Source: a virus
IMG/VR virus record: IMGVR_UViG_3300037246_002444
Coordinates: 1 to 21,264 of that record
DNA: 21,264 nt
Strand: one strand, 5' to 3'
Below, piece by piece: positions 715 through 1,403 of the stretch (the stretch's first letter is position 1; every line of letters starts with the position of its first letter). The position numbers were made by a program, and so were the translations under genes. The notes beneath the pieces were generated by a model that saw only the letters and a list, made by a program, of their open reading frames with translations, searched no databases and was not told where the DNA came from.

Positions 715-969
715 ATGCCCAGGACTCCCGAAGAGATCTACGTCTACGAAGGCCCCAAGCCCGAAGACGTCGCGAAGCTCGATCTGGCCGCCAGCGAGTA
801 CCTGAAGCTCGCCAACAAGATCCTCGCGGCGCTGCCGGACAATGAGTGGCGCGATGGGTGCCTGGCCCGTCTCGAGGCCTCGTTCCACCTCTCGGTCAAG
901 TCCGTATTGCAGCATGTCGAGCCGCCGGAGCCCACTCCGCTGCCGGAAGGGCCGGATCCGAACGGGTGA
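715..969 (+). CDS. Small helical-hairpin protein, Acb2/Tad1-hairpin-like
   Basis: 84 residues, starting two bases after the Lys-rich gene. Residues about 17-42 and 43-68 should form two helices joined by a Pro-containing turn (LAALPDNEWRDGCLARLEAS at about 37-56). The tail is Pro-rich and probably disordered. The spacing of Leu, Pro-Asp, Arg and the ARLEASF segment resembles the Acb2/Tad1 hairpin family. There a motif of the type 'P-[ND]-x-R-x-x-x-L-x-x-L-E-x-A' precedes the second helix. Acb2 proteins are phage sponges that bind cyclic di- and trinucleotides and so block CBASS defence; they act as oligomers in the cytoplasm. The match is from memory of the family, without an alignment, so the function is a hypothesis. 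Its TGA stop overlaps the GTG start of the next gene. Confidence 0.8.
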   Translation: MPRTPEEIYVYEGPKPEDVAKLDLAASEYLKLANKILAALPDNEWRDGCLARLEASFHLSVKSVLQHVEPPEPTPLPEGPDPNG

Positions 970-1403
970 GGTGGTACGACAACGGATTCACGCTGCTGGC
1001 TGCGATCATCCTCTCCTGCTTGATCGTGGCCTCCATCGCGCGCGGCGTCGAGATCTTCCAGCCCTGGGAGACCACCGAGCTCCATCAGGCCGGCGACGTC
1101 CACTCGTGGCGCATCGTCCCCAGCGGCTCCTACTACTCCAGCCCCGCCGAGCAGTTCAACCTCGAAGTGTGGGAGTTCCGGCGCGTGTCCGGAGTGCGCT
1201 GGGAGGGTGAGGACTGCAGCCAACTTCAGCTGCGCGTGGGCCGCGGCTACCTGATCAGTGAATGGAGCCACCCGCTCGTCCGTCCGCAGGGCTGCGTTTG
1301 GGTTCCGCCGACCCCTGTCCCCGAGCCATCTGGTCATGCTCCTCTTGGTGCAGGCGTAGTGCTGCTCGCACTGCTTCTTGCAGGGCGGCGTCTTCGTCGC
1401 TGA
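966..1403 (+). CDS. Exported protein with C-terminal PEP-CTERM-like sorting signal
   Basis: 145 residues from GTG 966, whose GTGA overlaps the preceding stop. Longer upstream starts would cut deep into the previous gene and lack support. Residues 8-25 form a hydrophobic signal or anchor (FTLLAAIILSCLIVASIA). The middle is a polar domain with two Cys (84 and 110), possibly disulfide-bonded. The end has the full tripartite layout of a PEP-CTERM signal: VPEP at 118-121, a hydrophobic helix at 126-140, and RRLRR at 141-145, ending at the stop. In bacteria this signal is recognised by exosortase, which cleaves and probably attaches the protein to extracellular polysaccharide or the envelope. The middle domain is not recognised. 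It might alter the infected cell's surface (exclusion) or help lysis; both are inference. The last 149 bases lie antisense to the gene at 1255-1539. Confidence 0.75.
   Translation: MRWYDNGFTLLAAIILSCLIVASIARGVEIFQPWETTELHQAGDVHSWRIVPSGSYYSSPAEQFNLEVWEFRRVSGVRWEGEDCSQLQLRVGRGYLISEWSHPLVRPQGCVWVPPTPVPEPSGHAPLGAGVVLLALLLAGRRLRR

Follow-up and report, generated by a model that had tools for sequence, protein, structure and literature searches.

The open reading frame at positions 966–1403 of the analyzed DNA is, with a probability of about one half, a real gene for a small envelope protein, exported in its middle part and anchored in the membrane at its C-terminus, that is either spanin-like or envelope-modifying. 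Its translation begins with a hydrophobic segment and ends in VPEP, a hydrophobic helix and the basic cluster RRLRR immediately before the stop. A sequence-only reading had described this architecture, which was borne out by the translation, and had taken it for that of an exosortase substrate. An ordinary phage membrane protein is, however, more likely than a proven user of the host exosortase pathway.

The Phage Record and Its Relatives

The window, i.e., the whole stretch of DNA analyzed, comprises 21,264 bases and is an entire IMG/VR virus record classed as linear. It probably represents a partial tailed-phage genome. It encodes an SU10-type portal (PF23899, E 4.6e-177), a major capsid protein (PF17236, E 1.1e-86), an internal virion protein of 1,429 aa and a terminase related at 45.6% to that of a Manatee Spring phage. 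The closest terminase relatives in IMG/VR shared 53–54% identity over the matched segment, and the relatives in prokaryote genomes (about 45–54%) belonged mostly to Alphaproteobacteria. An exosortase (PF09721) was present in 5 of the 31 genomes with a related terminase. The contig itself contained no exosortase, and no holin, endolysin or other lysis gene was recognised in the window. Back-to-back sigma-70-like promoter matches were observed at 2754–2789, where the divergent block on the minus strand meets the plus-strand genes leading to the terminase.

Homologues of the 966–1403 product were found neither in IMG/VR, phage records, plasmid records and 84,980 prokaryote genomes nor among solved structures, and roughly 230 loci from related phages and prophages yielded none either. 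As the scans of IMG/VR and of the genomes started from exact 8-residue seeds, they could detect only fairly close relatives. The neighbouring regions 1–606 and 2026–2445, used as queries, likewise returned no close relative. By these probes, the virus appears to be without close kin in the searched collection.

Layout of the Open Reading Frame 966–1403

The plus-strand frame is open over its 145 codons and ends in VPPTPVPEPSGHAPLGAGVVLLALLLAGRRLRR, followed by the stop codon. Its GTG start at 966 overlaps the stop of the preceding ORF 715–969 in a GTGA coupling. A longer version starting at 846 (185 aa) was disfavoured since the coupled GTG fits the end of ORF 715–969; the longer start would add about 40 polar residues ahead of the hydrophobic segment. 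The first 96 codons (966–1253) resemble those of a gene of this phage, scoring +22.9 and +15.6 bits relative to a non-coding model, and their third-position GC is about 0.9. The features of the frame and of its overlapping neighbours are listed in Table 1.

Table 1. Features of ORF 966–1403 and of the two ORFs overlapping it.
Feature	Position	Strand	Basis
ORF, 145 aa, putative envelope protein with a hydrophobic helix at each end	966–1403	+	Translation; gene-like codon usage 966–1253
N-terminal hydrophobic segment, residues 8–25, FTLLAAIILSCLIVASIA, putative signal peptide or membrane anchor	987–1040	+	Translation; model helix 3–30
Cys18 in loose lipobox-like IILSC	1017–1019	+	PROSITE PS00013-style pattern
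Predicted exported middle domain, residues 26–117	1041–1316	+	Translation; model pLDDT below 50
VPEP, residues 118–121	1317–1328	+	Translation
C-terminal hydrophobic helix LGAGVVLLALLLAG, residues 127–140	1344–1385	+	Translation; model; antisense resampling 0/20,000
Basic cluster RRLRR, residues 141–145, plus stop	1386–1403	+	Translation
Upstream coupled ORF, 84 aa, predicted two-helix hairpin	715–969	+	GTGA coupling to 966–1403
Convergent ORF, 94 aa, small membrane protein with charged C-terminal helix	1255–1539	−	ATGA-coupled to ORF 1536–1829

In an AlphaFold2 single-sequence model, helices spanned residues 3–30 and 127–144, and the middle had a pLDDT below 50. Hydrophobic residues 8–25 and the model helix 3–30 make the N-terminus of the 145-aa protein a candidate signal peptide. 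The middle domain contains no Lys and two Cys (residues 84 and 110) and becomes Pro-rich toward its end.

The arrangement is rare. A tail matching [VIL]PEP, helix and basic end occurred in 1 of 48,028 random frames of window composition and in no other frame among the first 88 related phage loci; a looser pattern gave six matches in 168 loci, all of them unconvincing. Terminal hydrophobic segments paired around a soluble middle were found in eight ORFs over 231 sources, ORF 966–1403 among them. With some hundreds of frames in each window, the chance of the tail pattern is on the order of one percent per window. Presumably, numerous windows were read for numerous motifs, hence rarity alone is no proof of function.

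The hairpin pattern of the upstream 715–969 product recalls Acb2/Tad1, a counter-defence domain of the anti-CBASS type. This identity was not supported (hhalign probability of 2.8%, no Pfam match), and no useful PDB fold match was obtained. An Acb2/Tad1 hairpin protein is encoded upstream of the terminase in the related locus L093 (6157–6693; PF24729, E 1.2e-14), and relatives, also upstream of the terminase, were observed in L089 (2568–2816) and L092 (an ORF near 527).

Antisense Overlap with a Convergent Frame

The 3' part of ORF 966–1403 overlaps the minus-strand ORF 1255–1539 tail-to-tail over 149 nt (1255–1403), which places the VPEP, helix and Arg tail antisense to another frame, a relation unremarked in the sequence-only reading. 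The minus-strand ORF is the last in a row of tightly packed ORFs running from 2747 down to 1255, and its ATGA-type overlap with the preceding ORF lies at 1536–1539. Within the tail (1318–1400), the codon score was −15.6 bits for the plus frame, which is antisense-like, and a marginal +2.2 bits for the minus frame. Given this score of the plus frame, the tail could be partly accidental.

Whether the tail is a shadow of the opposite frame was assessed by redrawing the synonymous codons of the minus-strand ORF from the usage of this phage (n = 20,000). So hydrophobic a helix arose in none of the 20,000 resamplings, and the mean peak hydropathy over the resamplings was −0.02 in comparison with 2.4 observed. 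When codon choice was relaxed and matched to the observed third-position GC, the helix appeared at a rate of about 0.04–0.14%; the highest rate under relaxed synonymous choice was 0.34%. The C-terminal helix of the 966–1403 product appears not to have arisen as a by-product of ORF 1255–1539.

Synonymous choice was atypical in both frames inside the overlap (z of −3.0 and −2.75 for the minus frame and of −4.4 for the plus-strand tail) and typical in both outside it (z of +1.6 and +1.7). The plus frame stayed open in 68% of the synonymous resamplings of the minus-strand ORF, and with the plus-strand gene as the only real one, the minus frame would be open 90% of the time; the open state of each frame therefore proves little. 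Since codon choice is odd in both frames only where they overlap, the simplest reading of this one sequence is that both may encode protein across 1255–1403. Given the confinement of the abnormal codons to the overlap, both C-termini appear as if under selection.

The minus-strand ORF 1536–1829 (97 aa) starts with MITRRDLFKGLGGALAALVG, which resembles a twin-arginine (Tat) signal (PF10518, 14.6 bits, below the cut-off of 22.7), and weak matches to terminase segments of about 20 loci fall in its C-terminal half.

Comparison with PEP-CTERM Proteins

PEP-CTERM tails are defined by a near-invariant Pro-Glu-Pro about 20 residues from the C-terminus, a hydrophobic helix of about 14 residues and a basic end (PMC1569441). 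Measured against this definition, V118-P-E-P121 supplies the motif, and LGAGVVLLALLLAG supplies the helix, which is followed by the terminal cluster RRLRR. The PEP-CTERM identity proposed in the sequence-only reading held for the architecture, in which all three visual features are present, but not for the family-model scores, which stayed below their cut-offs. The TIGR02595 model, suggested as a check, gave 10.1 bits for the product against a cut-off of 16; it matched nothing when the window was searched in all six frames, and nothing in 50 related viral records. PF07589 did not match the product.

The top NCBIfam matches of the tail were mostly PEP-CTERM families, the best reaching 17.8 bits (E 0.0023); PEP-CTERM families other than TIGR02595, and MYXO-CTERM, matched at 9–18 bits. 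The PEP-CTERM matches were lost in control tails with a shuffled head, and one control with a shuffled helix core exceeded the real tail on TIGR02595, with 16.7 bits. In a model built on 19 genuine PEP-CTERM tails from exosortase-bearing genomes, which is small, drawn from few lineages and a calibration rather than proof, the window tail scored 5.9 bits in comparison with 17.3–50.9 bits for held-out real tails. The level of 5.9 bits was reached by 27 of 12,710 viral ORF tails, by 23 of 2,000 full shuffles and by 169 of 2,000 core shuffles that kept VPEP and RRLRR.

The predicted proteins of this phage contain three PEPs in about 7,000 residues, one of them in the adjoining gene 715–969, at its Pro-rich end (VEPPEPTPLPEGPDPNG). 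Pro-rich PEP/PDP stretches occur in other proteins too, and PEP is unremarkable in this phage. No phage PEP-CTERM substrate was found in the literature; the match naming both phage and PEP-CTERM concerned Microcystis host genes and no phage substrate.

Like PEP-CTERM proteins (TIGR02595, PF07589) that are handled by the exosortase EpsH/Xrt (PF09721), the 966–1403 product combines VPEP, a helix and a basic C-terminus with a hydrophobic N-terminus. Unlike them, it is phage-encoded and an orphan; its tail lies below the thresholds of curated and home-made models, and compared with many real tails, its helix extends for about three more residues before reaching the Arg cluster. The helix and basic end also align with MYXO-CTERM (TIGR03901) at 14.7–16.4 bits, but this is below the cut-off of 20, and there is no Cys at the motif ahead of the helix. 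The PEP-CTERM assignment is thus partly supported, as an architectural resemblance rather than an established identity.

Comparison with Unimolecular Spanins

Unimolecular spanins are the best described class of phage proteins with an N-terminal export signal and a C-terminal anchor. Like spanins of the phage T1 gp11 type, the 966–1403 product has a hydrophobic N-terminus that may serve export, a middle predicted from the translation to be exported, and a C-terminal membrane helix. It differs from them in a lipobox that is off consensus, in two predicted periplasmic cysteines and in a contig in which no lysis cassette was recognised. FTLLAAIILSC matches the loose lipobox of the PROSITE PS00013 style; IILSC falls outside the strict spanin lipobox [LVI][ASTVI][GAS]C (PMC6139136), from which the Leu at −2 is a departure, and the hydrophobic run extends beyond Cys18. 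None of the 58 catalogued unimolecular spanins has a periplasmic Cys (PMC6139136), whereas Cys84 and Cys110 both lie in the predicted exported part. PHROG gave no significant match for the product. Spanin families are often singletons (PMC6139136).

Discussion

In the favoured reading, the N-terminal signal or anchor would bring the 966–1403 product into the inner membrane. Its middle, about 90 residues long, would face the periplasm, and the C-terminal helix ending in RRLRR would anchor the protein with its tail in the cytoplasm. The PEP would then belong to a Pro-rich linker immediately beyond the membrane and would probably be no exosortase recognition site. The protein most likely acts late at the host envelope, either as unimolecular spanins do or like an envelope-modifying protein anchored in the membrane. 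The frame, the hydrophobic segments at both ends, the basic tail and the antisense overlap are observed; membrane insertion, topology, coding by both frames of the overlap and function are inferences. Since the fit to spanins is incomplete, the broader label of a small, C-terminally anchored envelope protein acting late is favoured over a strict spanin or exosortase sorting. The envelope-protein reading is favoured by the gene-like first 96 codons with their coupled start, the model helices at both ends, the rarity of the layout, the resampling and codon-choice results in the overlap and the sub-threshold PEP-CTERM scores. Against it stand the lack of any homologue in the searched collections, the antisense-like codon score of the plus-strand tail, the imperfect spanin features and the lack of a recognised holin or endolysin in the window.

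A strict unimolecular spanin would be an N-terminal outer-membrane lipoprotein with a C-terminal inner-membrane helix that disrupts the outer membrane at lysis. The length of 145 aa, the helix with its basic, presumably cytoplasmic end, the loose lipobox and a model with weak strands in the middle only are consistent with it, as is the frequency of singleton families; moreover, in L089, which carries a near relative of the terminase, an ORF upstream of the terminase resembles a phage muramidase by eye. The Leu at −2, the hydrophobic stretch past Cys18, the two cysteines and the lack of a significant PHROG match or a recognised lysis gene in the window argue against it, and this identity is unlikely. 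Were the product a genuine exosortase substrate encoded by the phage, its signal peptide would export it, the host exosortase would recognise VPEP at the membrane face and remove the helix and Arg tail, and the product would be sorted to the outer surface or polysaccharide. The extreme C-terminal position of all three elements, an LGAG six residues past VPEP that is shared with the genuine L236 tail (VPEPASAALLGAGLLGLLAARRRQS), the predominance of PEP-CTERM families among the best matches and their loss on head shuffling, and the exosortases in related-terminase genomes speak for such sorting. The scores on TIGR02595 and on the 19-tail model, the shuffled control that outscored the real tail, the missing matches in related viral records and the lack of an exosortase in the contig or of a precedent in the literature speak against it, which leaves sorting improbable. 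The fuller proposal, in which a tailed phage has its own exosortase substrate, with a sorting tail antisense to a convergent gene, placed on the cell surface by the host, is quite doubtful.

It was also considered that only ORF 1255–1539 is real over the overlap and that the end with VPEP, helix and Arg cluster is nothing but its shadow on the opposite strand. Such an artefact would agree with the codon scores of the two frames in the tail and with the ease with which antisense frames stay open here. It is nevertheless quite unlikely, in view of the resampled helix rates with phage and with relaxed codons, the codon choice of the minus frame that is itself abnormal exactly in the overlap, and the openness of that frame even with the plus-strand gene alone.

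As things stand, the 966–1403 product is an orphan phage envelope protein. The case also calls for caution: where phage genes are GC-rich and overlap, a short sorting signal recognised by eye should be backed by model scores and homologues and controlled against the opposite strand. Were the tail to function as an exosortase signal, a phage protein would be routed via a pathway for which only cellular proteins have been described to date, and hosts with exosortases would be implied.
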